This document shows positions 1,046 to 37,981 of a stretch of 64,000 nucleotides of DNA, in pieces (the stretch's first letter is position 1; every line of letters starts with the position of its first letter). This DNA comes from Thermococcus celer Vu 13 = JCM 8558. Lineage in GTDB: Archaea > Methanobacteriota_B > Thermococci > Thermococcales > Thermococcaceae. Below the pieces are notes generated by a model. That model was not told the DNA's origin and did not search any database. It worked only from the letters and a program-made list of their open reading frames with translations. The stretch spans positions 992,001 to 1,056,000 of the forward strand of contig NZ_CP014854.1 in the NCBI RefSeq assembly GCF_002214365.1, given 5' to 3'. Position numbers and translations under genes: made by a program.

Positions 1046-2365
1046 TCAGAAGTTCTTCGGAACCACCCCTATGATAAGCGAGTTAACGTTCGTTCCGGTC
1101 GGGCCCGTTTTGAGGAGCGCGCCGGCCTTTTCGAGTGCGCGATAACTGTCATGGTTTCTCAGTGCCTTCTCCACGTCCACCCCCTCTTCCTTAAGCCTCT
1201 CGAGGGTTTCTCCATCAACGATTCCACCGGCGGCGTCCGTAGGACCGTCCGTTCCGTCGGTGTCAACGGCCAGAACCGCCGCGTTCAGTCCCGCTATCTT
1301 CCTCGCCACGCTGAGCGCGAACTCCTGGTTCGGCCCGCCGAGGCCCGCCTCCCCGCTTATCGTTACCGTCCACTCACCTCCCGCTATCAGGACCGCCGGT
1401 TTTTGAACGGGGCGGTCGTACCTGGCTATTTCCTGGACTATCGAGCCAAGGGCGAGGGCCACCTCCCGGGCCTCCCCCTCGAGGGTCGTGGTCAGAAGCA
1501 GGGGGTTGTAGCCGAGTTCTCTTGCCTTTTTCAGAGCCGATTCGCAGGCGAGGGTGTTGCTCCCGACTATGAAGTTGTGGACGTTCGGGAGATCCTCCTT
1601 GAGGGTTTCTTCTACTTCTCCCCTGAGTCCAAGCTCGATGTGTCTCCTAACGCTCTCCGGGAGCTGATCCCAGACGCCGTAGAGGTTCAGGATCCTGAAG
1701 GCGTCCTCAAATGTGGTGGGGTCCTTAACCGTCGGACCCGACGCTATTGCCTCGAGGGGGTCGCCGACCACATCGGAGAGGATGAGGCTTATGATCCTCC
1801 CCTTCACGCGCTTAGCCAGTTTGCCCCCTTTGACGGCTGAAATGTGCTTCCTCACGGTGTTTATCTCGTATATCCTCGCCCCGCTCCTGAGGAGGAGCTC
1901 GTTCGTCCGAATCTTATCATCCAAACTGATGCCCTCCTCCGGAAGGAGGAAGAGAGCGCTACCGCCGCCGGAGATGAGGACTATTAGGACGTCATCCTCC
2001 CCGACCTTTCTGGCAAGTTCGAGGCCGAGTTTTCCACCGAGCATGGAGTTCTCGTCGGGAACGGGATGCCCCGCCTCGATAACCTTCAGCTTTTCCATTT
2101 TGGGGCAGTTCCGGGCGTAGCCGTACTTGGTGACTATCACCCCTTCCGCTATCCTCGCGCCGAGGAGGTCGAAGACGGCCCTCGCCATGGGGCAGGCGGC
2201 CTTGCCGAAGGAGAGGAGGTAAACCTTCCCCTTAACCTCGAACTCCTCACCGCGGACCGTCAGGCGGTTTTCGTTTACCTTCAGGTTCCGCCTCACCGCC
2301 CGGTAGGGGTCGGCGCTTTCGATGGCGGCACGCATGATCTCTAAGGCAACCCTTCTGGCGTCCAT
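1046..2365 (-). CDS. gckA: Glycerate 2-kinase (MOFRL family)
   Basis: A 439-residue protein matching the archaeal glycerate kinase family: an N-terminal DUF4147 Rossmann-type domain (YLLSFGKAACPMARAV, VLISGGGSALFLLPEEGISL) and a C-terminal MOFRL domain (GGEWTVTISGEAGLGGPNQEFAL, AVDTDGTDGPTDAAGGIVD). The family phosphorylates D-glycerate to 2-phosphoglycerate with ATP, feeding glycolysis in the cytoplasm. It is the last gene of the minus-strand transporter operon, 19 bp after the TrmB-type regulator. That position suggests the imported or internally released compound yields glycerate. Confidence 0.88.
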   Translation of the reverse strand: MDARRVALEIMRAAIESADPYRAVRRNLKVNENRLTVRGEEFEVKGKVYLLSFGKAACPMARAVFDLLGARIAEGVIVTKYGYARNCPKMEKLKVIEAGHPVPDENSMLGGKLGLELARKVGEDDVLIVLISGGGSALFLLPEEGISLDDKIRTNELLLRSGARIYEINTVRKHISAVKGGKLAKRVKGRIISLILSDVVGDPLEAIASGPTVKDPTTFEDAFRILNLYGVWDQLPESVRRHIELGLRGEVEETLKEDLPNVHNFIVGSNTLACESALKKARELGYNPLLLTTTLEGEAREVALALGSIVQEIARYDRPVQKPAVLIAGGEWTVTISGEAGLGGPNQEFALSVARKIAGLNAAVLAVDTDGTDGPTDAAGGIVDGETLERLKEEGVDVEKALRNHDSYRALEKAGALLKTGPTGTNVNSLIIGVVPKNF

Positions 2366-2384: not shown

Positions 2385-3398
2385 TTACCCGAATAGAACG
2401 ATGCGATCGGCCTCGATGTCCTCGAGGGAGGCGTTCCAGCCGCCCACGACGTACCTCTTGCCGTCCTCCGTCTCCACGGTGACGTTTGAGATGACCTTGC
2501 CCTCGTCCTCGTAGAAGTCCACGATTTTCCCCACGAGATGAACCGGCTTCCCCGATCTAACGAAGCGACCGAAGACCTCCACACAGGGGTTCTGGAGCTT
2601 AAACTCCCTAAGGTCGGAGACGAGCTCCCTTATGTGTATGTACTCCTTCGGGAGGCTGAGGGGTTTGTTCTCCCTGTAAACGACCCTTCCGGTGGGCCAG
2701 AGGGCGTGGTAGAAGTAGCGGTCGAGCATGAAGAGGAGGTTGTTGTCTTGGATTACCAGTCCATAGCCGTGGAGGGAGTTACCTGTTGTCAGGGCCTCGT
2801 AGGGCAGGTAAACCCCCATCTCCCTGTCCTGGATCACGATTATGGGGTCGGGAACCTCGCGCACACGGATCTCCGTCGCAAGGGGCGGTACATCCTCCCC
2901 GCCGTAGACGAAGAGGTTTACCCTGATGGAATCCTTCCTCTTCATGAGGTCGTTCTCGAGCCCCCCGAGAAGTTCATGGGGAACCGCAATGCTGAGATGG
3001 AATCTGCTCCTCTTTATGGCCTGCCGGATGTAATCCTCGAGGGTTATCCTGCTCTTAACGACCGTGACGCTCCCGATTTCTCCCTTTGGGGTGTATAGCT
3101 TTTCCAGGGCCGTTTTAAGGGCGTCTATTTTTTCGGTGTAGCGCCTCTTCATGGCGTTCATGACGTTGTTTGGATTGATTGGAACGACCTGCTTCGGCCG
3201 CCCCTCACTCGTAGTCACGAAGCCCTTCGCCATCAGCGTCCTTATCACGTCGTATATCCTGGGCTGGGGAACCTTGGAGAGCGTCGCCAGTTCTCCCGCC
3301 GTTAGGGGACCGTTTCTGATAAGGGTAAGGTATGCCCTAACCTCGTACTCGTTCAGCCCGAGTTCCTTGAGCAGGGACTTTATCTCCCTCTCGTCCAT
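2385..3398 (-). CDS. TrmB-family sugar-responsive transcriptional regulator
   Basis: A 337-residue TrmB-type regulator, close to the 338 residues usual for TrmB. Residues 1-75 form the winged helix (LTAGELATLSKVPQPRIYDV as recognition region). Residues 75-110 are helical linker or dimerisation region, and 110-335 form the sugar-binding effector domain. Members bind sugars and repress or activate sugar ABC operons in Thermococcales. It lies between the transporter ATPase and glycerate kinase genes, 9 bp after the ATPase gene, as T. litoralis trmB lies within its trehalose/maltose operon. It is the best candidate to bind the three AACCAYY-N3-RRTGGTT palindromes of the island. It could equally be a TrmBL paralogue. 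Confidence 0.85.
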   Translation of the reverse strand: MDEREIKSLLKELGLNEYEVRAYLTLIRNGPLTAGELATLSKVPQPRIYDVIRTLMAKGFVTTSEGRPKQVVPINPNNVMNAMKRRYTEKIDALKTALEKLYTPKGEIGSVTVVKSRITLEDYIRQAIKRSRFHLSIAVPHELLGGLENDLMKRKDSIRVNLFVYGGEDVPPLATEIRVREVPDPIIVIQDREMGVYLPYEALTTGNSLHGYGLVIQDNNLLFMLDRYFYHALWPTGRVVYRENKPLSLPKEYIHIRELVSDLREFKLQNPCVEVFGRFVRSGKPVHLVGKIVDFYEDEGKVISNVTVETEDGKRYVVGGWNASLEDIEADRIVLFG

Positions 3399-6214: not shown

Positions 6215-7543
6215 TCATGGAACTTCCACGCCGGCCTCGGTGAAGAGGCCTATGAGCTTCGGTTTGAGCTCGCTCGTGACCTTCGCCGGGTCCTCTCCGT
6301 TGAGAACTATCCTCTCGAATGCCGTTCTGTAGATGTCCTTGAAGTCACCACCCTTTGACCCGAGGTTCGGAATCATGGCCACTAACGCGTCGGAGGTGCT
6401 CGACTGAGCCGTAACGCCCTCGGCGAGTATCTTAAGCGGTCCCTCGGGCAGTTTTCCACTCGCTTCCTTGACGGTCGGGAAGAAACCGACCTTCTCCAGA
6501 ACCTTAATCTGGGTCTCCGGCTTGGTGAGGTAGTCTATGAGCTTCCACGCCTCGTCCTTGTGCGGGGCGTTATTGGGTATGGCGAGGCCCGCGAGAACGA
6601 CGATGAAGCCCCTTCCCTTGGGTCCCCTTGGGACCGGGACGACAACGAACTGGTCGGGCTTCGTGGTTATGGCGTCTTTAATCCTCGCCGTGTGGTCCCA
6701 GGCTATGAGAACCTCTCCCTTGAGGAGCGGGTCGCTCATCGCGTCCCAGGTGGTGCTCGACGGGTGGACGTAGGGCCAGAGCTCCTTGAGGTAGTTCCAC
6801 ATCGTAACGGCGTCCGGGCTGTCGAACTCCTTGGCCTGGTAGCCCGTGTAGCTCGGGTAGATGTAGCCGTGGAGGAACCTGACGAAGAGTCCCTTCGGCC
6901 CGGCCGGGAAGCCCACCTGTGGCTGGCCCGTGGAATCTTTGAGCTTCTTGGCCCACGCCAGGAAGGCGTCGTAGGTCCACTTGTCGGTTCCCTTCATGAC
7001 GTCATCCTCTGTAAGTCCGTCGGGGAGGTACTTGAAAGCCTCCTTGTTGACCACCATAACGTAGGTGGCGCTCATCCATGGAACGTAGACCTTCTTTCCG
7101 TTAATGACGGAGTACTTCTCGAAGGTGCCTATGAAGGTCCTGCCCTCGAGCTTGGGCATGCCGCTCAGGTCCATCAGCCAGCCTTTGGATGCCATGTAGT
7201 CCATACCGCCGTGAAGGTCACCCACGACGTCGATGGTTACCTTCCCCGTTTTCTCCTCTGCATCGAGCCTCGTAACCATGTCCGTGTACGAGACCGGGAC
7301 GAAGTTAACATTTATACCTGTCTCGTCCGTGAAGCCCTTCAGCAGGGTCTGCTGGACGAAGGCCCTTTCCTCGGGCGGGGTCAGCTGGGTTGAAAGCCAG
7401 GTCAAGGTTACTTTCTCGGTCGCAGTGGTCGTTTTGCTCGTGCCGGTTTCACTGGTGGTCTCTCCCCCACCGCTTATGCATCCGCTGGCCACCACTCCAA
7501 AAACCACAACGACGACCAGCAAAAGCCCAAACAGTCTCTTCAT
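6215..7543 (-). CDS. Sugar ABC transporter substrate-binding lipoprotein
   Basis: A 442-residue extracellular solute-binding protein. The start at 7543 is chosen because GGGTGAT sits just upstream and gives a clean signal peptide (MKRLFGLLLVVVVVFGVVAS), followed by a lipobox-like Cys (SGC) and a Ser/Thr-rich linker of the kind that tethers archaeal binding proteins to the membrane. The family 1 fold is visible in VTLTWLSTQ..., LVAMIPNLGSKGGD and the LIAWDHTARI region. It is the first gene of the six-gene operon, 58 bp downstream of its TATA box. The ligand cannot be read from sequence; context suggests a glycoside. Confidence 0.9.
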   Translation of the reverse strand: MKRLFGLLLVVVVVFGVVASGCISGGGETTSETGTSKTTTATEKVTLTWLSTQLTPPEERAFVQQTLLKGFTDETGINVNFVPVSYTDMVTRLDAEEKTGKVTIDVVGDLHGGMDYMASKGWLMDLSGMPKLEGRTFIGTFEKYSVINGKKVYVPWMSATYVMVVNKEAFKYLPDGLTEDDVMKGTDKWTYDAFLAWAKKLKDSTGQPQVGFPAGPKGLFVRFLHGYIYPSYTGYQAKEFDSPDAVTMWNYLKELWPYVHPSSTTWDAMSDPLLKGEVLIAWDHTARIKDAITTKPDQFVVVPVPRGPKGRGFIVVLAGLAIPNNAPHKDEAWKLIDYLTKPETQIKVLEKVGFFPTVKEASGKLPEGPLKILAEGVTAQSSTSDALVAMIPNLGSKGGDFKDIYRTAFERIVLNGEDPAKVTSELKPKLIGLFTEAGVEVP

Positions 7544-7600
7544 GGTCATCACCCGATACATTCATCCAGTAAGGTACTTCAAGGGATTTACGTGGACGAT

Positions 7601-7621: not shown

Positions 7622-7638
7622 AACCACTGAAAGTGGTT
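7622..7638. promoter_or_regulatory. Palindromic operator A, AACCACT-GAA-AGTGGTT
   Basis: A perfect 7-bp inverted repeat with a 3-bp spacer, upstream of the TATA box of the transporter operon and followed by GT. The same motif occurs in the other two control regions of the island (9734-9750 and 11864-11880). I infer it is the binding site of the TrmB-type regulator encoded in the operon, or of another island-specific factor. Confidence 0.72.
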
Positions 7639-7662: not shown

Positions 7663-8676
7663 TTAGAGGTCGAGCCTCACCGTTCTCCCCGTCCGGGAGG
7701 ACTCGTAGGCGGCGAGGATTATCGCGAGGTTCCTCCTGGCGTCCTCACCCGTTATTGGAACGTCGGTATCCCTGAGAACGGCCGTGGTGAATGAGTCCAC
7801 TATTCCCCTCACATCGGGCCTGTCCCAGTAGATCTTTTCAGCCCTGTCCTGATAAACGGTGAAATCCGGGTAGGCCGTTCTTATGTCAAGGAAACCCTCC
7901 CTTCCGACGAGGTAGTACTTCATCTCGATGCCGTAGGAGTAGCCCTTGGGGTTGCCCCAGCCGGCGGTGAGGACGGCCAGAACACCGTTTCTGAACTCGA
8001 GAACCGCCGTTCCGATGTCGTCCACGGGGAAGCCGTACACCTTGGAACCGATGTCCGCGTAGACCTTCTTTGGAACGTCACCGGTCAGCCAGAGAAGGGA
8101 GTCGACGCCGTGGGGGGCCGTGTCCATGAAGCCGCCACCACCGGATTTCCTCGCGTCCAGGAACCAGCTCATGTCAAGCCCCTGGAGGAATATCGGCGGC
8201 TTGACGTTCTCGGAGATGGTCTGGGCGTACTCGAGGGGGCCTATCTCGCCGGCATCGAGCATTTCCCGGGCCTTTCTCAGGGGGTCTGTGAAGCGCGGGT
8301 TGAAGGGCAGCATAAGCTTGACGCCGGCCCTCTCGGCCGCTTTTATGACCTCGTCCGCGTCCTTCAGGTTGAGGGCGATCGGCTTCTCAAGGAGGATGTG
8401 CTTGCCCTCCTCGGCGGCCCTTACGGCGATCTCCTTATGCCGATAAGTCTCTATGGCGATGTAGACCGCCTCCACATTCTCGTCCCTCAGGAGGACCTCG
8501 TAGTCCCCGTAGAACCTCGCACCGTACCTCCTCGCCTCCGCCCGGGCGACGTCGGAATTCGAGCCGTCGCCGGAAATGGCCACGAGCTTCGTCCCCTTGC
8601 CTTGAGCTATCGCTGAAGCAAAACGGAGGGCGTGCGGATGGGCGTAACTTATTACCCCGAAGTTGAGCTTCTTCAT
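7663..8676 (-). CDS. Gfo/Idh/MocA family oxidoreductase
   Basis: A 337-residue NAD(P)-dependent sugar dehydrogenase-like protein. The N-terminal Rossmann fold (NFGVISYAHPHALRFA...) has an atypical glycine motif. The family EKP motif is present (HILLEKPIAL, ~92-101), as is the C-terminal substrate domain (GGGGFMDTAPHGVDSLLWLTG). It overlaps the upstream paralogue by 4 bp (8673-8676) and is co-transcribed with it. The pair probably interconverts or epimerises a sugar through a keto intermediate. The substrate is unknown. Confidence 0.87.
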   Translation of the reverse strand: MKKLNFGVISYAHPHALRFASAIAQGKGTKLVAISGDGSNSDVARAEARRYGARFYGDYEVLLRDENVEAVYIAIETYRHKEIAVRAAEEGKHILLEKPIALNLKDADEVIKAAERAGVKLMLPFNPRFTDPLRKAREMLDAGEIGPLEYAQTISENVKPPIFLQGLDMSWFLDARKSGGGGFMDTAPHGVDSLLWLTGDVPKKVYADIGSKVYGFPVDDIGTAVLEFRNGVLAVLTAGWGNPKGYSYGIEMKYYLVGREGFLDIRTAYPDFTVYQDRAEKIYWDRPDVRGIVDSFTTAVLRDTDVPITGEDARRNLAIILAAYESSRTGRTVRLDL

Positions 8677-9680
8677 ATCTCAACCACCTCCCCCTTCCGG
8701 GCGCTCTCCTTGGCCTTCTCGGCGATCTTCAGCGCAATAAGGGCATCTTCAGCCGTAACCACCGGTTCTTCTTTCCCCTTGATGCAGTTGAAGAAGTGCC
8801 TCAGCTCGCGCTCGAAGGCATCTGGGAACGTCGAGAGAAGCGGTGAGAAGCGGGGCATCTCGAAGTTGGCCTTGGCGACGCCGACGACGGGGGTGTCCAT
8901 AGGGGTATAACGTATCCTGCCGTTCTTCCCGATAATGTCCACGTGGTGGTAGAACACACCGTAGCGCGCTGGATACGGGTAAGCCCAGCTGACCTCGGCT
9001 ATGCCCGTCTTTTCACCCTCAAACCTTATCATCATGAAGAAGTGGTCAAAGGTTCCGTTTGCCCTTGCCTCTTCCTTTATCGCCTTGCCAACGGCGTAGA
9101 CGCTCACCGGTTCGCTCTCGAAGAACCAGCGCAGGAAGTCGGTGACGTGAACGCCGAGGTCGACGGCGACGCCGCCGCTTTTCCTTTCATCCCAGTACCA
9201 GTAGTCCTTCGGGAAGGGAAGGTTCTGAACCTCGGCCTTCCTGATGTGAACCGGAAGGACGTTGCGCTTCTCTATGACCTCCTTCATCTGAATCCATCTC
9301 TTATCAAAGCGCCTCACGTGGCCAACGAAGAGGTGCAAGCCCTCTTTCTCCGCGGTCCTTATCATCCTCTCGCCCTCTTCGACGGTTAGTGCTATCGGCT
9401 TCTCGACTATCACGTGCTTCCCCGCCCTGAGGGCAGAGACGGCAAGCTCAGCGTGGCTGTACGTCGGGGTCAGCACCTCAACGACGTCGAGGTCGAGGTC
9501 AAGGAACTCGTCGAGGTTCGTGAAAGCCTTCGCCCCGAGGGCCTTAGCGCCTTCCCGGGCCCTGGTGGTGTCTATATCCATGCACGCAACGACCTTAATG
9601 CCCTCTATCTCTTTCAGTGCCCTCTTGTGGGCGAGGTTGAATATGTTCCCGCAGCCTATCACTCCCACCCTCAGCTTCAT
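8673..9680 (-). CDS. Gfo/Idh/MocA family oxidoreductase
   Basis: A 335-residue oxidoreductase with a good Rossmann motif (VGVIGCGNIF, near residue 5), the EKP motif (HVIVEKPIAL, ~94) and the C-terminal family signature (GGVAVDLGVHVTDFLRWF). The catalytic Lys is expected within EKP. The start at 9680 (MKLRVGV) follows GGCGATGTCC; an ATG two codons earlier, at 9686, is also possible. It heads a two-gene operon driven from the TATA at 9712-9719, with operator B upstream of that TATA. Identity with the downstream copy looks low, so the two are probably functionally different partners. Confidence 0.87.
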   Translation of the reverse strand: MKLRVGVIGCGNIFNLAHKRALKEIEGIKVVACMDIDTTRAREGAKALGAKAFTNLDEFLDLDLDVVEVLTPTYSHAELAVSALRAGKHVIVEKPIALTVEEGERMIRTAEKEGLHLFVGHVRRFDKRWIQMKEVIEKRNVLPVHIRKAEVQNLPFPKDYWYWDERKSGGVAVDLGVHVTDFLRWFFESEPVSVYAVGKAIKEEARANGTFDHFFMMIRFEGEKTGIAEVSWAYPYPARYGVFYHHVDIIGKNGRIRYTPMDTPVVGVAKANFEMPRFSPLLSTFPDAFERELRHFFNCIKGKEEPVVTAEDALIALKIAEKAKESARKGEVVEI

Positions 9681-9711
9681 GGACATCGCCTGAACGGAAT
9701 ACGGTCGAAAG

Positions 9712-9719
9712 GTATATAA
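9712..9719. promoter_or_regulatory. Shared TATA box for divergent oxidoreductase and glycosyltransferase genes
   Basis: The sequence around TATATA reads GTATATAA on plus and TTATATAC on minus. It is the only TATA-like element in the 95-bp divergent spacer. Minus-strand start would fall near 9690; plus-strand start near 9740, inside operator B. The plus gene has a strong AGGAGGGTGG ribosome binding site. Confidence 0.6.
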
Positions 9720-9733
9720 CCCTTTTCAAAATA

Positions 9734-9750
9734 AACCACTCTAAATGGTT
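9734..9750. promoter_or_regulatory. Palindromic operator B, AACCACT-CTA-AATGGTT
   Basis: This matches operator A in 13 of its 14 arm positions, with one broken pair, and is also followed by GT. It is 14 bp upstream of the TATA for the oxidoreductase operon and at the expected start site for the divergent glycosyltransferase gene. A bound factor could therefore act oppositely on the two genes. Confidence 0.7.
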
Positions 9751-9775: not shown

Positions 9776-10918
9776 ATGAGGGTCGTCGTTGGAATTCCAA
9801 GCTACAACAACGCGGGAACCATCTCTTTCGTCGTTAAACAGGCCGCCGAAGGGCTGAGGAAGTACTTCGGCGGGGGAATCGTCGTCAACGCCGACGGTGG
9901 AAGCACCGACGGGACGAGGGAAGCCGTGTTGAAAACGGAAGTCCCGGCCGGTGTTGAGGTTCACAGTTTCGTTTACAGGTGGCCCATCCCGGGCAAGGGC
10001 AGCGCCATGAAGGAGCTGATGGAGTTCGCCCTCGGAAGGGACGCCGATGCAATAGTGTTCGTGGACAGTGACCTGAGGAGCATAACCCCTGAGTGGATAG
10101 ACCGCCTCGCCCGACCCATCGAGGAGGGGTACGACTTCGTGGCACCGCTCTACATAAGGCACAAGTGGGACGGCACGATAACCAACAACATAGCCTACCC
10201 GATGACCGCCTCGCTCTACGGCAGGAACGTCAGACAGCCGATAGGGGGCGACTTCGGGATAGGAAGGAAGCTCATGGAGGCCTACCTCGAGGACGAGGAG
10301 GTCTGGAAGACCCACGTGGCGCGCTTCGGCGTCGACATATTCCTGACCACGACGGCCATAGCGAGGGGCTTTAAGGTGACCCAGGCGGCTCTCGGCATGA
10401 AGATACACGACCCCAAGGACCCGGCCGCGTCGCTGGGCCCCATGTTCAACCAGGTCGTCGGAACGCTCTTCATGCTGATGGAGAAATACGAGGATAGATG
10501 GAAGGACGTGAGGAGCATAGAGCCCGTTCCTGTCTTCGGGGAGCTGGAGAAGGGCGAGCCGGAGCCGGTGAGGGTGACGCTGGAGCTCCTGGAGGAGAGG
10601 GCAAAGGAGCTCTTCACCGAGCACGAGGCCGTTCTTAGAAAGGCCCTGAGCCGGGAGACACTCGAGGGGGTGAAGGAAGCCCTGAGAACCTTCGAGTTCG
10701 ACGACGAACTCTGGAGCCACGTCCTCTACGACGGGGCGGTGGCCTACAAGGAAGGAATCCTCAGCGAGGCCGAACCCCTTGTCCCGCTCTACTTCGCCAA
10801 GACTGCTGATTTCGTCAGGAAAACCGCGGAGATGAGCACGCTCGAGGCGGAAAAGCTGATAGAGAAGAGGGCAAAGGTCTTCCTCGAGGAGAAGGACTAC
10901 CTGCTGGAGCGCTGGTAG
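9776..10918 (+). CDS. GT-A glycosyltransferase, GT2/GT81-like (glycosyl-glycerate synthase-like)
   Basis: A 380-residue cytoplasmic glycosyltransferase with no membrane segment. Visible motifs are VVGIPSYNNAGTISFV at the N-terminus, NADGGSTDGT (~43-52), PGKGSAMKELM (~77), the metal-binding FVDSDLRSITPEW (~97), RQPIGGDFGIGRKL (~152) and HDPKDPAASL. The PGKG...VDSD...QPxGG(D/E) series is shared with glucosyl-3-phosphoglycerate synthases and mannosylglycerate synthase-type enzymes. The last ~130 residues are helical. Neighbouring glycerate kinase makes glycerate or phosphoglycerate an attractive acceptor, but this is inference. Its 3' end overlaps the convergent PfkB gene by 22 bp. Confidence 0.75.
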   Translation: MRVVVGIPSYNNAGTISFVVKQAAEGLRKYFGGGIVVNADGGSTDGTREAVLKTEVPAGVEVHSFVYRWPIPGKGSAMKELMEFALGRDADAIVFVDSDLRSITPEWIDRLARPIEEGYDFVAPLYIRHKWDGTITNNIAYPMTASLYGRNVRQPIGGDFGIGRKLMEAYLEDEEVWKTHVARFGVDIFLTTTAIARGFKVTQAALGMKIHDPKDPAASLGPMFNQVVGTLFMLMEKYEDRWKDVRSIEPVPVFGELEKGEPEPVRVTLELLEERAKELFTEHEAVLRKALSRETLEGVKEALRTFEFDDELWSHVLYDGAVAYKEGILSEAEPLVPLYFAKTADFVRKTAEMSTLEAEKLIEKRAKVFLEEKDYLLERW

Positions 10919-11847
10919 AGCCCCCTCACCTCCCTCATCAATATTATTTCCTCCATCTTTGGAACGCTCCACGCCCCCCTGCGGGTGGTCGAGAGGGCCG
11001 CCACGAGGTTGGCAAAGCGGCCGATTCTCCTCAGGCTTTCCTCATCGAGTTCCATTTTACCGAGCAGGTTTGAATGATAGAGGCCCGCCAGAAGGGCGGC
11101 CATGAACGCGTCCCCCGCGCCCGTGGTATCGAGGGGCTCAACCCTGTAGGCCGGAACACGAACCCTGCAGCACTCCCCAACCAGCTCACTACCCCTCTCG
11201 CCGGAGGTTACCGCCATCAGCCATGGATTGAAGTTCTCCGGCTCAATCCCGTTGCCCCTCAGGTACTCCAGCTCACCGTCCCCCAGCTTGACCACATCAG
11301 CCAGTCTGAGGGCCTCCTCAACGTCCCGGAGCATCTCCCCGTTTCTTCCGCGCCAGAGGTCGGGCCTCAGGTTGACGTCGTAGCTCAGCATAACCTTCCC
11401 CTTGAGCTTCCGCAAAATCCCGAAGAGCGTCGAGCGGGAGGGCTCCCTCGCGAGGAGCACGGTCCCGAAGTGAACAACCTCGGCGTTTTCAAGGACGGAG
11501 AAGTCAACGTCCCCCGGTTTCAGGTTGAAGTAGGCAACGCCGTCGTACAGTATGAACTCCGGCTTCGCCCCTATCAGCTGGACGAAGACCACGCCCGTGT
11601 GCCTCTCCCCATCCCGGGGAATGTAAGTTCTCACGCCCTCGTTGCGGAGCTCCTCAAGCAGAAAGTCCCCGAAGGGGTCGTCGCCGACCTTGCTCACCAG
11701 CGCGCTCTCAACGCCGAGCCTCGAGAGGCCGACCGCCACGTTAGCCGGGGCACCGCCGGGGTGCCTCTCGAAGGATCTCACCTCCCTCAGCCTCCCCTCC
11801 TGGAGCGCTATGAAGTCTATGAGGACCTCGCCGATGGAGACCATCAT
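10897..11847 (-). CDS. PfkB-family carbohydrate kinase (fructokinase/KDG-kinase-like)
   Basis: A 316-residue ribokinase-fold kinase. The first signature is GGAPANVAVGLSRLGVESAL (~31-50); the second, containing the catalytic Asp, is DTTGAGDAFMAALLAG (~235-250). The ATG at 11847 was chosen because GGTGAT sits 7 nt upstream; ATGs at 11853 and 11844 are alternatives. It diverges from the isomerase-like gene through operator C. It likely phosphorylates a monosaccharide released or remodelled by the island. It could be a fructokinase, a 2-keto-3-deoxygluconate kinase or an ADP-dependent sugar kinase relative. Confidence 0.88.
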   Translation of the reverse strand: MMVSIGEVLIDFIALQEGRLREVRSFERHPGGAPANVAVGLSRLGVESALVSKVGDDPFGDFLLEELRNEGVRTYIPRDGERHTGVVFVQLIGAKPEFILYDGVAYFNLKPGDVDFSVLENAEVVHFGTVLLAREPSRSTLFGILRKLKGKVMLSYDVNLRPDLWRGRNGEMLRDVEEALRLADVVKLGDGELEYLRGNGIEPENFNPWLMAVTSGERGSELVGECCRVRVPAYRVEPLDTTGAGDAFMAALLAGLYHSNLLGKMELDEESLRRIGRFANLVAALSTTRRGAWSVPKMEEIILMREVRGLYQRSSR

Positions 11848-11863
11848 TCCCATCACCGGATGC

Positions 11864-11880
11864 AACCATTGAGGGTGGTT
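11864..11880. promoter_or_regulatory. Palindromic operator C, AACCATT-GAG-GGTGGTT
   Basis: Read on the minus strand it is AACCACC-CTC-AATGGTT followed by GC, which aligns with operators A and B over both arms and the trailing G. It is upstream of the TATA for the plus-strand isomerase gene and over the predicted start of the minus-strand kinase. The arrangement repeats that of operator B. Confidence 0.68.
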
Positions 11881-11892
11881 TACAACGCAACG

Positions 11893-11899
11893 GTTATAT
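11893..11899. promoter_or_regulatory. Shared TATA box for divergent kinase and isomerase-like genes
   Basis: TTATATG on plus and CATATAA on minus are the only TATA-like sequences in the spacer. Plus transcription would start near 11920, minus transcription near 11870, inside operator C. Confidence 0.6.
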
Positions 11900-11930
11900 G
11901 CTTTTTCGCCAACATTCCCCGGTGTTTCCC

Positions 11931-13409
11931 ATGATAGCCGTCCTTACTTTCACCGATCCCAGACCGACGGCCCTCTCGGAGGAGCGCGAGCGGGCCCTGA
12001 TGGAGAAGCATTCCGGACTCGTGGAGGAGTTAAGGGAGGAGGGTTTCGAGGTCCTTGACGTCAACGGGAGGCTCGGGAAGTACGAGGCCCTCAAAGCCGG
12101 AAGGAACTTCGGCGTGGATTCGATGGAGGGGGCCTTTGAAGCCGGAAAGATGATAGCAGGAGAGGGCGCGAGCGGGGTGATAGCAGGCCTCTGGCACTGG
12201 ACCGAGAGCAACCTCGTCACGGCGATGGTGAGGGAAGCCAAGAGGCCCGTCCTCCTCTACGCCGATGACGACCCTGCATGGGCTGGGACGACGTGCGTGA
12301 CCTCGGTTGGCGCCTCCCTCTGGGAGAGCGCGGTTAACGAGTACGCTTTAAACCACGTCCGCATCAAGGGGGACGTTGGGAAGGTCAAGGCCTGGGCACG
12401 GGCGGCTGAGGCCGTCTCGAAGCTCTCGAGGAAGTCCCTCCTCCTGTGGGGAGCCCCCTACACCCTCGGGATGGAGCACCTGATGGACGACCTGCCTGGG
12501 CTCAAGAGGATCGTTGGCGATTTCGTAATCCTCGATCAGTACGTTCTCGTGAGGAAGGCCGAGGAACTGCTCTCGGGTGAGGAAGAACGGGTGGAAGGAT
12601 TCTACGACTGGCTGAACGGGAAGGTTAAGGTTAAGTTCGACGGCCGCATGCTGACGCCCGGGGTGTTAAAGAAGCAGATAGCCCTTTATCTGGCCGCGAA
12701 GGAGAGCTGGGGGGAACACGGTGAAATCTCGGCCGTCTCCGTAAAGTGCCAGCCCGAGCTGAGCGAGGTCTACGGCGTCACCCCCTGCCTGATTCCAGCG
12801 TTCTTCCCGTTCAACGTGGATGCAGAGGGCGAGAAGGAGGTCGTTCCCGCGACGTGCGAGGGCGACGTAAAGGGGACGATAAGCTCGGCCCTGCTCTTCT
12901 ACCTGAGCGGTAAACCGCCCCTCTTTGGCGATATAAAGTACGTGGACGATGGGATAGTTCTAATAGCCAACTGCGGCGCCTCCTCGCTCTACTACGCGAG
13001 GCTGAGCGATGACCCCGAGGAGAACCTTGGGGCCACTTTAATCCAAGGGCAGTGCCAGGGGAAGAGCGGTGGCGCTTTGACGTACAGAACGCCACCCGGG
13101 AAGTTCACCGTGGCCAGGCTGATACGACGCGGCGGGGAACACTACCTGCTCTACTTCCTCGCCGAGGGGGTGGAGATAACCGAAGAGCTGGAGTCAAAGC
13201 TTAAGTGGGGCAAGCAATGGCCGCACACCGCCGTAAGGAACCCCCTCGACAAGGAGACCTTCATCTCGGCCATGGGCGCCAACCACCTCTCGCTCGTTCC
13301 GGGCGACTACACCGGGGAGCTCAGGTTCGTGGCGAGGCTATGGGGGATAAGGGCGGTGGACCTTGGAGACAGGCGAGAGGTGAAATCCTTCCTCGAGGGA
13401 GGGCAATGA
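11931..13409 (+). CDS. L-fucose/L-arabinose isomerase-fold protein
   Basis: A 492-residue protein of the fucose/arabinose isomerase superfamily: N-terminal Rossmann-like half (LTFTDPRPTALSEERER, GVIAGLWHWTESNLVTAM, RPVLLYADDDPAWAGTTC) and C-terminal half with SAVSVKCQPELSEVYGVTPCLIPAF and ATCEGDVKGTISSALLFYLSGKPPLFGDI. The family binds Mn2+ through Glu/Asp/His; CEGD is a likely acidic ligand site. The ATG at 11931 is downstream of the TATA at 11893 and preceded by GGTG; the ORF extends 11 codons further upstream, across the likely transcription start. Its stop overlaps the glycosidase start (ATGA). Aldose-ketose isomerisation is the family reaction; the specific sugar is unknown. Confidence 0.78.
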   Translation: MIAVLTFTDPRPTALSEERERALMEKHSGLVEELREEGFEVLDVNGRLGKYEALKAGRNFGVDSMEGAFEAGKMIAGEGASGVIAGLWHWTESNLVTAMVREAKRPVLLYADDDPAWAGTTCVTSVGASLWESAVNEYALNHVRIKGDVGKVKAWARAAEAVSKLSRKSLLLWGAPYTLGMEHLMDDLPGLKRIVGDFVILDQYVLVRKAEELLSGEEERVEGFYDWLNGKVKVKFDGRMLTPGVLKKQIALYLAAKESWGEHGEISAVSVKCQPELSEVYGVTPCLIPAFFPFNVDAEGEKEVVPATCEGDVKGTISSALLFYLSGKPPLFGDIKYVDDGIVLIANCGASSLYYARLSDDPEENLGATLIQGQCQGKSGGALTYRTPPGKFTVARLIRRGGEHYLLYFLAEGVEITEELESKLKWGKQWPHTAVRNPLDKETFISAMGANHLSLVPGDYTGELRFVARLWGIRAVDLGDRREVKSFLEGGQ

Positions 13410-15268
13410 GGACGATACTGGCGTCCAACGGGGCCTTCGTCCTGAGCGATGAGAGGGGGGACATGGGCGGAGTCTACGACGGCTTTTACCTCCTCGACAC
13501 GCGCTTCGTCAGGAAGGTCAAGCTGGAGGTATCCCCAGGGCCGGAGTTCATGGGGGCCTCATCGACGTTCACAACGGCGGTCTCCCACTTCTCCCTCGGC
13601 GGGAGGGGAGTTCTCGTAAGAGTGAGAACGCTGAACGGGACTTACGGGGAGAGGCTGTCCTTCTACAACACATCCGACGGGCCGCTGGAGGTTCGGGTTA
13701 GGTACTCCTACGAGGCACCCATCGAGGACGTATTCCAGGTCAGGGGTTTCATGGGGCTGAAGGGCGAGGAAGCAATGGCCCCGACGGACGGGAGGTACGT
13801 TCGAGAGAGCCCCGCGGGAAGGAGAAGCCTGACCGTCGAGACCAACATGGAGCGGGAGGGAAACGTCCTGAGGGCCGAGCTCAGGATACCTCCCCGCGGG
13901 AAGGCCACGCTACACGTTCGCTTCGTTCCTGGCATCGAGGACAAGGTCTCGGGGATGCTCGGTGAAGAAAGGGAGTGGATAGGGAACGTTGCCTTCACCG
14001 GTTCGCCGGCAATCGACGGGATCTTCGAGAGGGCCGTGGAGAACATAAACGCCCTCACCCTCTTCACGCGCTTCGGGCCGGTTCCCCTCGCCGGAATTCC
14101 ATACTTCGCCTGCCCCTTCGGGAGGGACGCGATAGTAACCTCGCTCTTCCTCCTGCCCTACTATCCGGAATACGCCGCCGGCACGCTGAGGCTCCTCGGA
14201 CGGCTCCAGGGGAAACGGAACAACCCCGAGAACGAGGAAGAGCCGGGGAAGATACCCCACGAGTTCAGGCTCGGACAGCTCGCCCAGTCGGGGAGGGTTC
14301 CCTTCGCGCCCTACTACGGCACCGTCGATGCCACCCCGCTCTACGTGGCCTTGGCTGGAGAGTACCTGCGCTGGACGGGGGACGAAGACCTGATAGGGGA
14401 GCTAAGGCCGAACCTCACGGCCGCCGTGGAGTGGATACTGAGAAAGCTCGATGAGGGTTACGTAACCTACGTTCCCGGGATACTCGGCAACAAGGGCTGG
14501 AAGGACTCGAGGGACGGGATAGTCGACGAAAATGGAAATCCGCCGAAACCGCCCGTGGCGCTCGTCGAGGTGCAGGGCTACGCCCACTGGGCGCTCAGGC
14601 TCGCGGGAGAGCTCGGGCTGACGGAGCTCGACGAAAAGGAGCTTCTAACCGAGGCAGAGCGGCTCAGGAAAAGGTTCAACCGCGACTTCTGGCTCGGCTC
14701 CCACTACGCCCTCGCGCTGGACGGCGATGGGAGACCGCTAAAGCCGGTATCGTCGAACATGGGGCACATCCTCCTCACGGGGATAGCGGAGCACGAGGGG
14801 GAAATCGTGGAGAGGCTCTTCCAGCCGGACATGCTATCCAGCTATGGAATACGGACCCTGAGCGCCGGGGAGAGGGCCTACGACCCCTTCAGCTACCACC
14901 GCGGGAGCGTATGGCCGCACGATAACGCTCTGATAGCGCTGGGCCTCGCGAGGATAGGAAAGGCCAATCTCGCGAGGGAGCTCATGGAACGGGTCTTCGC
15001 GGCGGCGAAACTGATGCCCTGGAAGGAGCTCCCGGAGCTCTACAGCGGGCTGGACGATCTCGTTCCCGTCCCGAGGGCCAACTCGCCGCAGGCCTGGAGC
15101 GCGGCGAGCGTCTTCGCGTTCCTGACGGCCTCGCTGGGAATGGAAAGCGGAGACGAACTCAAGGTTAAACCGGCCGAGGGCATGAGGGTAATCCTGAGGG
15201 GAGTTCGGTTCAGGGGAAGGAGATACTCGGTGGTCGTGGATGGCGGAGCGGAAGTTAGGCGTTTATGA
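13406..15268 (+). CDS. Debranching-type (alpha/alpha)6 glycosidase (amylo-alpha-1,6-glucosidase family)
   Basis: A 620-residue protein. Residues 1-190 match the beta-rich GDE_N_bis domain (VYDGFYLLDTRFVRKVKLEV), and 200-600 form the (alpha/alpha)6 toroid of COG3408 (YFACPFGRDAIVTSLFLLPY, SYHRGSVWPHDNALIALGLA, PRANSPQAWSAASVFAF). No secretion signal is seen, so it acts inside the cell. Family members cleave alpha-glucosidic or alpha-mannosidic bonds, including glycogen branches in some. With a glycerate kinase in the island it could hydrolyse a glycosyl-glycerate, but this is untested. It begins within the isomerase stop codon, and its 3' end overlaps the GH130 start by 29 bp, so the three were one operon. 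Confidence 0.8.
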   Translation: MRTILASNGAFVLSDERGDMGGVYDGFYLLDTRFVRKVKLEVSPGPEFMGASSTFTTAVSHFSLGGRGVLVRVRTLNGTYGERLSFYNTSDGPLEVRVRYSYEAPIEDVFQVRGFMGLKGEEAMAPTDGRYVRESPAGRRSLTVETNMEREGNVLRAELRIPPRGKATLHVRFVPGIEDKVSGMLGEEREWIGNVAFTGSPAIDGIFERAVENINALTLFTRFGPVPLAGIPYFACPFGRDAIVTSLFLLPYYPEYAAGTLRLLGRLQGKRNNPENEEEPGKIPHEFRLGQLAQSGRVPFAPYYGTVDATPLYVALAGEYLRWTGDEDLIGELRPNLTAAVEWILRKLDEGYVTYVPGILGNKGWKDSRDGIVDENGNPPKPPVALVEVQGYAHWALRLAGELGLTELDEKELLTEAERLRKRFNRDFWLGSHYALALDGDGRPLKPVSSNMGHILLTGIAEHEGEIVERLFQPDMLSSYGIRTLSAGERAYDPFSYHRGSVWPHDNALIALGLARIGKANLARELMERVFAAAKLMPWKELPELYSGLDDLVPVPRANSPQAWSAASVFAFLTASLGMESGDELKVKPAEGMRVILRGVRFRGRRYSVVVDGGAEVRRL

Positions 15269-15656
15269 GTTCAGATTCGAGAAACTCCCGGGGCCCGTTC
15301 TCTCCCCCTCGAAGGAGGGGTTCGACTCGAAGAACACCTACAACCCCGCGGTGGTCGAGAGGAGGGGAAAGGTGGTCATGCTTTACCGCGCGGAGGCGAA
15401 GGGGGAGGGGATAACCGGGAGGATCGGACTGGCGCTCAGCAGGGACGGGGTTAATTTCATCCGGCATCCAGAACCGGTTATGGAACCCGAGTACGGCTGG
15501 GAGAGGCTCGGCGTTGAAGATCCACGCGTCGTGAGGGTTGGAAAGACGTACCACATGACCTATACGGGCTACGACGGAAAAACGGCCAGACTCTGCATCG
15601 CCACCTCGAAGAACCTCCTGAACTGGAAGAAGCGCGGGGTCGTTTTTGAGGGCTGT

Positions 15657-15896
15657 TCTCTAAATAGTAGCTATCACAACATTTGAATATTTTTGTTTTT
15701 TTCAAAAAACTTTAAATGGCTCCGTGTTTAACTATTGATGTCCCCGATATGTGGGGTTTTAAGCCCGAATGGGGACTGGGGAGGGGGTTGTGGCGAAGAT
15801 GTGGGGAGTGCCCGTTCCCCCCGAAAGCCCTCCAATGAAGCCTGAGGAGGGAAGGTTAACCGTAACAATATTTACAAAAGTTACGGCTAACCAGAA
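15657..15896 (+). mobile_element. ~240-bp ORF-less structured insertion (MITE-like, possibly IS200/IS605-derived)
   Basis: The block interrupts GH130 and holds no ORF of interest. Its left part is AT-rich, with a small hairpin (ATAG-TAG-CTAT, 15667-15677) and a T-run/A-run palindrome near 15700, then a good promoter-like AAACTTTAAATGG. A GC-rich region follows with nested inverted repeats: GTCCCC/GGGGAC, CCCC/GGGG and CCCTCC/GGAGGG. The right part has a 13-bp inverted repeat with one mismatch (15854-15866 with 15880-15892). Subterminal hairpins, no clear target duplication and a structured right-end transcript suggest a derivative of an IS200/IS605- or IS607-type element. Boundaries are good to about 5 bp. 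Confidence 0.6.
15854..15892. repeat. Right-end inverted repeat of the insertion
   Basis: The arms GGTTAACCGTAAC and GTTACGGCTAACC pair over 12 of 13 positions around a 13-nt A/T-rich loop. They sit just inside the junction where GH130 coding sequence resumes. Confidence 0.8.
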
Positions 15897-16446
15897 CGGT
15901 TCCCCTTCCCAAAGAACGGCGTTACCGACTGGACGAAGAGCGGGGCAGTACTGCCCGAGAGGATGAAGTCGGGGCCGTTTAAAGGTCACTACATCATGTA
16001 CTTCGGGGACTCCAGCGTCTGGCTGGCGTATTCGAAGGACCTCCTCCACTGGGAGTACGATCCAAAGCCGGTTATGGGGCCGAGGGGTTACCTCGTGGAG
16101 CCCGGGCCGGCTCCAGTCCTCACAGAGGATGGGATACTCCTGATACACAGCGAGGCCTTTAATGAGAATGGAAAGCTCGTCTACTACACCCACGCGGCCC
16201 TCTTTGACCGGGAGGATCCCAGAAAGCTTGTCTGGAGAACAGAAAAACCTATCCTCAAACCGACCTTCGACTGGGAGCGGCACGGGTGGGTGGACAACGT
16301 GGTCTTTGCGGAGGCCATGATAGAGCGCGGAGGGAAGCTCCACCTCTACTACGGTGCCGCGGACAGGTACGTGGGCCTCGCTATGGGAAGGGTAGTGCCC
16401 GCAAGTCTTAAATAGGGACGTGACGGACCCTCAAAGAGGGGAATTG

Positions 16447-36802: not shown

Positions 36803-37981
36803 ATGAGATATAAGAAGCGCAAATACTTCCTCGCCGGCAGGATAAACCTCATCCAGCGCTCGAAAATCAGGGAGCTCTTTGAGAAAGCAAGGAAGATGGA
36901 GAACGTTATCTCCCTCGGCATCGGCGAGCCGGATTTTGACACCCCTCAGGTCATCAAGGAGGCCGCGAAAAGGGCCCTGGATGAAGGTTACACCCACTAC
37001 ACCCCCAACGCGGGTATTCCCGAGTTCCGCGAGGCCATAGCCGAGTACTACAGGACCCACTACAAAGTCGATGTATCACCTGAAGACATAATAGTCACCG
37101 CCGGCGCTTACGAGGCGACATATCTGGCCTTTGAGACCCTCCTTGAAGAGGGGGACGACGTCATAATCCCCGATCCGGCCTTCGTGTCCTACGTTGAGGA
37201 TGCCAAGATAGCCGAGGCGGGCATAATAAGGATACCCCTCAGGGAGGAGAACGAGTTTCAGGTCGACCCAGATGAACTCGTAGAGGCCATAACCAAACGC
37301 ACGAGGATGCTCGTCATCAACTATCCCAACAACCCCACCGGCGCGGTTCTCCGAAAAAAAGTCGTTAAAGCCATCGCGGACATAGCGGAGGATTATAATA
37401 TTTACATACTCAGCGACGAACCCTACGAGCACTTCCTTTACGAGGGGGCGAAGCACTACCCGATGATAAAGTACGCCCCGGACAACACCGTCCTGGCCAA
37501 CAGCTTCTCCAAGACCTTCGCCATGACGGGCTGGAGGCTCGGCTTCACCATAGCCCCGAGGCAGGTCATCCGGGATATGATAAAGCTCCACGCGTACATT
37601 ATCGGAAACGTTGCCTCCTTCGTGCAGATGGCCGGGATCACCGCCCTGAGGGACAAGAGGAGCTGGGAAGCCCTCGAACGTATGAGGCAAACCTACGCCG
37701 AGAGGAGGAGAATAACTCTGAAGCATCTGGAGAAGATGCCGCACGTAACCCCGTTCAGGCCAAGGGGTGCCTTCTACATCTGGGCGAAGATAGACCCGAG
37801 CCTGGACATGAGCAGTGAGGATTTCGCGGAGTGGTTACTTGAGAACGCCGGTGTCGTCGTCATCCCCGGAACCGCCTTTGGAAAAGCCGGCGAGGGCTGG
37901 ATAAGGATAAGCTACGCTACCAAGAAGGATCAGCTCGTTGAGGCGATGCACAGGATGCACGAGGCGCTCTCAAAGCTCTGA
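36803..37981 (+). CDS. Aspartate/aromatic aminotransferase (class I)
   Basis: A 392-residue PLP enzyme: SLGIGEPDFDTPQVIKEAAK, YPNNPTGAVL (~178), LSDEPYEHFLYEG and the PLP lysine in SFSKTFAMTGWRLGF (~235-249). The C-terminal Arg in EGWIRISYAT binds the substrate carboxylate. It is similar to archaeal aromatic or aspartate aminotransferases; exact specificity is uncertain. Start ATG at 36803 follows GAGGTGATGCTA. Confidence 0.9.
   Translation: MRYKKRKYFLAGRINLIQRSKIRELFEKARKMENVISLGIGEPDFDTPQVIKEAAKRALDEGYTHYTPNAGIPEFREAIAEYYRTHYKVDVSPEDIIVTAGAYEATYLAFETLLEEGDDVIIPDPAFVSYVEDAKIAEAGIIRIPLREENEFQVDPDELVEAITKRTRMLVINYPNNPTGAVLRKKVVKAIADIAEDYNIYILSDEPYEHFLYEGAKHYPMIKYAPDNTVLANSFSKTFAMTGWRLGFTIAPRQVIRDMIKLHAYIIGNVASFVQMAGITALRDKRSWEALERMRQTYAERRRITLKHLEKMPHVTPFRPRGAFYIWAKIDPSLDMSSEDFAEWLLENAGVVVIPGTAFGKAGEGWIRISYATKKDQLVEAMHRMHEALSKL

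Follow-up and report, generated by a model that had tools for sequence, protein, structure and literature searches.

Copies of one operator at two shared-TATA divergent promoters suggest a local TrmB-family regulon in Thermococcus celer

TrmBL1 of Pyrococcus furiosus and Tgr of Thermococcus kodakarensis act through a palindrome, the TGM (TATCAC-N5-GTGATA), with upstream sites activating and downstream sites over the start repressing (PMC4706686, PMC4158304). A first-pass annotation of the DNA studied here had invoked this rule, in the form that sites upstream of BRE/TATA activate and downstream sites repress, and the literature supports it (PMC4706686). A dual-action site of this kind has already been reported: at PF1538/PF1539, TrmBL1 represses PF1538–PF1535 and enhances PF1539 (PMC4706686). 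At the trehalose/maltose (TM) operon, the TrmB regulator is encoded together with an ABC sugar transporter and its site, TACT-N3-AGTA, overlaps BRE/TATA. TFB-RF1 (PF1088) uses a palindrome whose distance to the weak BRE and TATA downstream of it is conserved, and the accessible part of its description mentions no shared-TATA partner (PMC5937170). In the bidirectional promoters of P. furiosus, a BRE flanks a near-symmetric TATA on either side; one TATA fires both ways, with starts ~49–50 bp apart, and the second transcript is mostly antisense noise (PMC6640164).

The window analysed here, a 64,000-nt stretch of the 1.87-Mb T. celer genome, contains a sugar-uptake and glycoside cluster with a 17-bp palindrome between the divergent genes OX2 and GT (Table 1). 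Leftward transcription covers OX2 and OX1 and, after them, SBP, two permeases, an ATPase, the TrmB-family regulator and one glycerate-kinase-like gene. To the right lie GT and, facing it, the PfkB kinase; beyond them come ISO, a GDE/MGH-like hydrolase orthologous to PDB 7vma, and a GH130 gene. The similarity of GT to glucosyl-3-phosphoglycerate and mannosylglycerate synthases makes it plausible that the cluster turns over a glycerate glycoside. In another Thermococcus strain a GT81 glucosylglycerate synthase has been annotated (PMC8790579), which does not imply identity with the GT described here.

Table 1. Features of the cluster and its promoters, in window positions
Feature	Position	Strand	Description
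Operator AACCACTCTAAATGGTT	9734..9750		TGM-like architecture, 6-N5-6
Second operator AACCACTGAAAGTGGTT	7622..7638		Precedes the TATA of the transporter operon (7608-7602, -) by 13 bp
Third operator AACCATTGAGGGTGGTT	11864..11880		At the second shared-TATA divergent promoter
Shared TATA	9713..9719		TATATAA on + (GT), TTATATA on - (OX2)
Second shared TATA	11894..11900		TTATATG on + (ISO), CATATAA on - (PfkB)
BRE for GT	9706..9710	+	CGAAA; 5/5 match to VRAAA at fixed spacing in 39/40 genomes
BRE for OX2	9723..9727	-	GAAAA; one base farther from the TATA than the GT BRE
Predicted GT start	9741..9743	+	Inside the operator; from the 25–27 bp rule
Predicted OX2 start	9691	-	C/A at -1/+1; short putative leader carrying GGCGAT
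GT	9776..10918	+	GT2/GT81-like glycosyltransferase; kin of glucosyl-3-phosphoglycerate and mannosylglycerate synthases
OX2	8673..9686	-	Gfo/Idh/MocA oxidoreductase
OX1	7663..8676	-	Gfo/Idh/MocA oxidoreductase; overlaps the OX2 end, same operon
SBP	6215..7561	-	Heads the ABC transporter operon, which includes the TrmB gene
TrmB-family regulator	2385..3398	-	Winged-helix and sugar-binding effector domain; likely operator binder
Glycerate 2-kinase-like gene (MOFRL)	1046..2365	-	
PfkB-family sugar kinase	10897..11847	-	
ISO	11931..13409	+	Fucose-isomerase-C-domain protein; heads the GDE/GH130 operon

On the forward strand, the OX2–GT spacer reads CGAAA-GG-TATATAA-CCCTTTTCAAAATA-AACCACTCTAAATGGTT. 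Start sites were predicted from the TATA centre plus 25–27 bp, following the rule for P. furiosus (PMC6640164). The first-pass annotation had placed the operator 14 bp upstream of the TATA for the oxidoreductases and at the expected start of GT. Both placements are confirmed, the gap being exactly 14 bp (9720–9733) and the operator centre at 9742 lying 1 bp from a predicted GT start at ~9741. The annotation had also described the TATA as reading both ways, which it does, and as the only TATA-like element of the spacer, which is a slight overstatement: a weaker AT-rich element, TTTATTTT, adjoins the operator on the reverse strand.

The arrangement is conserved among relatives. In all 40 operator-positive genomes the shared TATA reads TATATAA, TATTTAA or TATATAT, and the operator centre and the predicted GT start, taken as TATA centre plus 25, are 1–3 bp apart. 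A symmetric TATA with VRAAA on both sides (gap allowed 1–3) was found in 39 of these. By its sequence, OX2/GT would therefore count as a BRE–TATA–BRE bidirectional promoter; in contrast to the P. furiosus examples, it has a conserved gene on either side and carries an operator.

The consensus AACCAYNNNNNRTGGTT, AACCAY-N5-RTGGTT, has three exact matches in the window, at 7622, 9734 and 11864. They span 4.3 kb and provide each promoter region of the cluster with one operator; the probability of three matches falling so close together by chance is estimated at ~1e-8. Genome-wide there are four exact matches, and a reversed control pattern gave none in the genome. The exact copies, the clean control and the conserved placement across genomes rule out a chance palindrome. 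An RNA hairpin or terminator is likewise ruled out, as the SBP copy is upstream of the promoter and would lie outside the transcript of that operon. The one exact match away from the cluster lies at G000:C1:1634968-1634984.

The layout of the OX2/GT promoter recurs between PfkB and ISO, at a site absent from the earlier annotation, where PfkB is predicted to start at ~11872, right at the operator centre. The operator of the transporter promoter has a matching upstream spacing to its own TATA. From operator edge to TATA, the distance on the OX2 side is 14 bp in 24 genomes, 15 bp in 15 and 16 bp in one (40 in total). It is 13 bp in 24, 12 bp in seven and 14 bp in five of the 36 SBP promoters, and 13 bp in seven and 14 bp in four of the 11 ISO promoters. 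The operators at 9734 and 11864 are thus predicted to be dual-mode TrmB-type sites, each lying upstream of BRE/TATA for one gene and covering the start of its neighbour, and the shared TATA elements, with their A-rich BRE-like flanks, could serve both genes of OX2/GT and of ISO/PfkB.

At OX2/GT, every position of the AACCAC and ATGGTT half-sites is invariant across the 40 genomes. The TATA-proximal half-site reads GTGGTT in 40/40 genomes at OX2 and in 35/36 at SBP, and the distal half-site at SBP varies (AACCAC, AACTAC or AACAAC). This pattern indicates that the operators are oriented alike relative to OX2, SBP and ISO. In the ISO/PfkB spacer of four genomes, both half-sites are altered in step, giving the operator variant AACAACCAAAAGTTGTT with matched arms (AACAAC-N5-GTTGTT); a paired change of this kind is expected for dimer binding.

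We surveyed 94 Thermococcaceae genomes. GT was present in 51 and its promoter was readable in 49, of which 40 carried the operator in the same place and nine lacked it. A TrmB orthologue was found in all 40 operator-positive genomes and in none of the nine operator-negative, GT-positive ones; the split is clean, but the nine belong to two lineages (the Pyrococcus-like genus g3, and G024), so that independent events are few. In one genome (G078) the transporter has been lost, and TrmB, OX1, OX2, GT and the operator are kept; in another (G066) GT is undetectable and the operator still stands at OX2. The cluster regulator scores above the curated cut-offs for PF01978 (79.2 bits) and PF11495 (147.8 bits), placing it in the TrmB family, and its 138.8 bits against the TrmBL1 equivalog NF047390 fall below the cut-off of 650. 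A separate, true TrmBL1 gene lies at G000:C1:1499141. Near the cluster, no TGM was found at up to two mismatches; the only match, at 37074, is at chance level. TrmBL1 itself occurs in most operator-less genomes and, with the TGM absent from the cluster, is ruled out as the binder.

Since the operator is absent where the TrmB gene is absent, the cluster TrmB protein is likely to bind the operators. The 40:0 versus 0:9 association bears out the earlier proposal of one local factor, and it also argues against the idea that some other DNA-binding protein recognises the palindrome. The persistence of operator and TrmB in G078 after transporter loss, the TGM-like CAC-N5-GTG core and the exclusion of TrmBL1 make that idea very improbable. 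Eight Pyrococcus-like loci carry OX1, OX2 and GT together and divergent, without transporter, TrmB or operator, which suggests that these three genes form a functional unit of their own.

We scored BRE strength as the number of matches out of five to VRAAA, the consensus quoted in PMC5937170, at a fixed gap of 2 or, as the best score, with a shifted gap allowed. The mean was 4.97/5 for GT and 3.91/5 for PfkB (best 4.45/5), compared with 3.36/5 for SBP and 3.00/5 for ISO (best 4.00/5 for both), ISO being the weaker side of the ISO/PfkB promoter. Strong BREs at GT and PfkB fit repression, and weak BREs at SBP and ISO fit activation. The OX2 BRE (4.30/5 at gap 2, best 4.97/5) is not clearly weak and does not discriminate between the two. 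By a TFB-RF1-like criterion of a weak BRE, SBP and ISO score at most 4/5, and OX2 reaches 5/5 at the shifted gap. With a palindrome at a conserved distance from their TATA, SBP and ISO would resemble the TFB-RF1 promoter, whose motif is unrelated.

Taken together, these data point, with a probability of about 0.6, to one local TrmB-family regulon that serves to take up and turn over a small glycoside, which may be a glycerate glycoside, with opposite regulation of the two directions. TrmB would bind each operator as a dimer. At about -43 to -59 of OX2, SBP and ISO, the bound protein would help to assemble the transcription complex, and over the starts of GT and PfkB it would block the polymerase. 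Because the TrmB gene belongs to the SBP operon, such a mechanism predicts positive autoregulation. As the bound form would activate uptake, the signal molecule would be expected to favour binding, unlike the usual TrmB inducers. Several observations count against this model: besides the OX2 BRE, the AT-rich element adjoining the operator could be a second OX2 TATA, the upstream motif of fbp lies ~8 or 20 bp from its box rather than 13–14 bp, and PfkB looks catabolic but falls on the repressed side. The division into breakdown and synthesis genes drawn by the first-pass annotation is accordingly not secure, given this placement of PfkB at the second site and the retention of OX1/OX2/GT in Pyrococcus-like genomes without transporter or operator.

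A simpler scheme, in which bound TrmB blocks both directions until the transported sugar releases it, as at the TM operon, is unlikely but is the main rival. The protein would then obstruct the GT and PfkB starts as well as factor loading at OX2, SBP and ISO. The best-known local TrmB proteins do keep the operons of their own transporters repressed until the substrate releases them (PMC4158304), a local regulator whose gene sits in an uptake operon usually derepresses that operon, and ISO and PfkB would move together, consistent with a catabolic PfkB. However, the operator here stands off the TATA, its edge 12–16 bp away and without BRE overlap at OX2, SBP or ISO, unlike the TM site, and the weak SBP and ISO BREs suit an activator.

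Less probable still is that the two directions use separate promoters, OX2 being transcribed from TTTATTTT. In that case the operator and the OX2 BRE would overlap, with repression in both directions. This element is AT-rich in 40/40 genomes and resembles TTTATAAT in genus g5. Its equivalent at SBP, however, is TTCTAAAC in many genomes, while a TATA at 12–14 bp is always there, and most g1 genomes have not kept the AT-rich element at their transporter promoter; such variation suggests that it is not a constant part of the promoter. The predicted OX2 leader also speaks for the shared TATA. From 9691 to a codon at 9680, which is probably the conserved OX2 start codon rather than 9686, it measures 11 nt. 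In relatives it is mostly 10–14 nt, close to the Thermococcus median of 11–12 nt (PMC5316973), and most genomes carry a ribosome-binding-like sequence in it; the shorter leaders in some relatives reflect an earlier start codon taken by the script.

Within the preferred reading of opposite regulation, the operator might act as a direction switch for the symmetric TATA at the two mirrored promoters, an extension that we regard as tentative and on balance doubtful. On its own side, the bound factor would recruit TFB to the weaker BRE; by covering the opposite start at the same time, it would set the facing of the transcription complex.

The resemblance to TrmBL1/Tgr extends to the 6-N5-6 architecture, the CAC-N5-GTG core and the layout of sites, but the operator has other outer bases, its regulon is local rather than global and the regulator is different. 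PF1538/PF1539 similarly combines one site, a short divergent spacer and one AT-rich TATA region. In Pyrococcus homologues of this region, chosen by position upstream of the phosphorylase gene and homologous to PF1538/PF1539 by inference, the TGM lies downstream of the TATA in one direction and upstream in the opposite one, at a distance of ~27 bp versus 14 bp here. At fbp, reported to be activated by TrmBL1, alignment places the TGM ~8 bp (many g1 genomes) or ~20 bp (g2, g4, g5 and g6) from the box. These two spacings are about one helical turn apart and about half a turn off the 13–14 bp of this cluster, which makes the TrmBL1 analogy a qualitative one. In five loci of genera g4 and g5, the TrmB cluster has fbp (fructose bisphosphatase) as a neighbour no more than a few kb away.

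The literature searched yielded no published start-site, binding or expression data on the cluster. The papers on T. onnurineus and P. furiosus provided promoter rules and no cluster data, and the accessible parts of those on Palaeococcus and T. piezophilus do not report the cluster genes. We found no account in the literature searched of a local TrmB regulon with its own operator, kept across Thermococcaceae, and this one is apparently undescribed. It would offer a natural, compact test of the archaeal rule of upstream activation and downstream repression, since both modes must come from a single site around one TATA. A single in vitro template could reveal whether a symmetric promoter can be made to fire in one direction rather than the other by an archaeal factor.

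The GH130 gene of the ISO operon (15240–16415) is split by a MITE-like repeated element of ~240–300 bp, at 15660–15900 in the window. Another 13 sequences in the genome match the element fully or in part, and matches to both halves of the GH130 gene occur in most relatives with the ISO operon.
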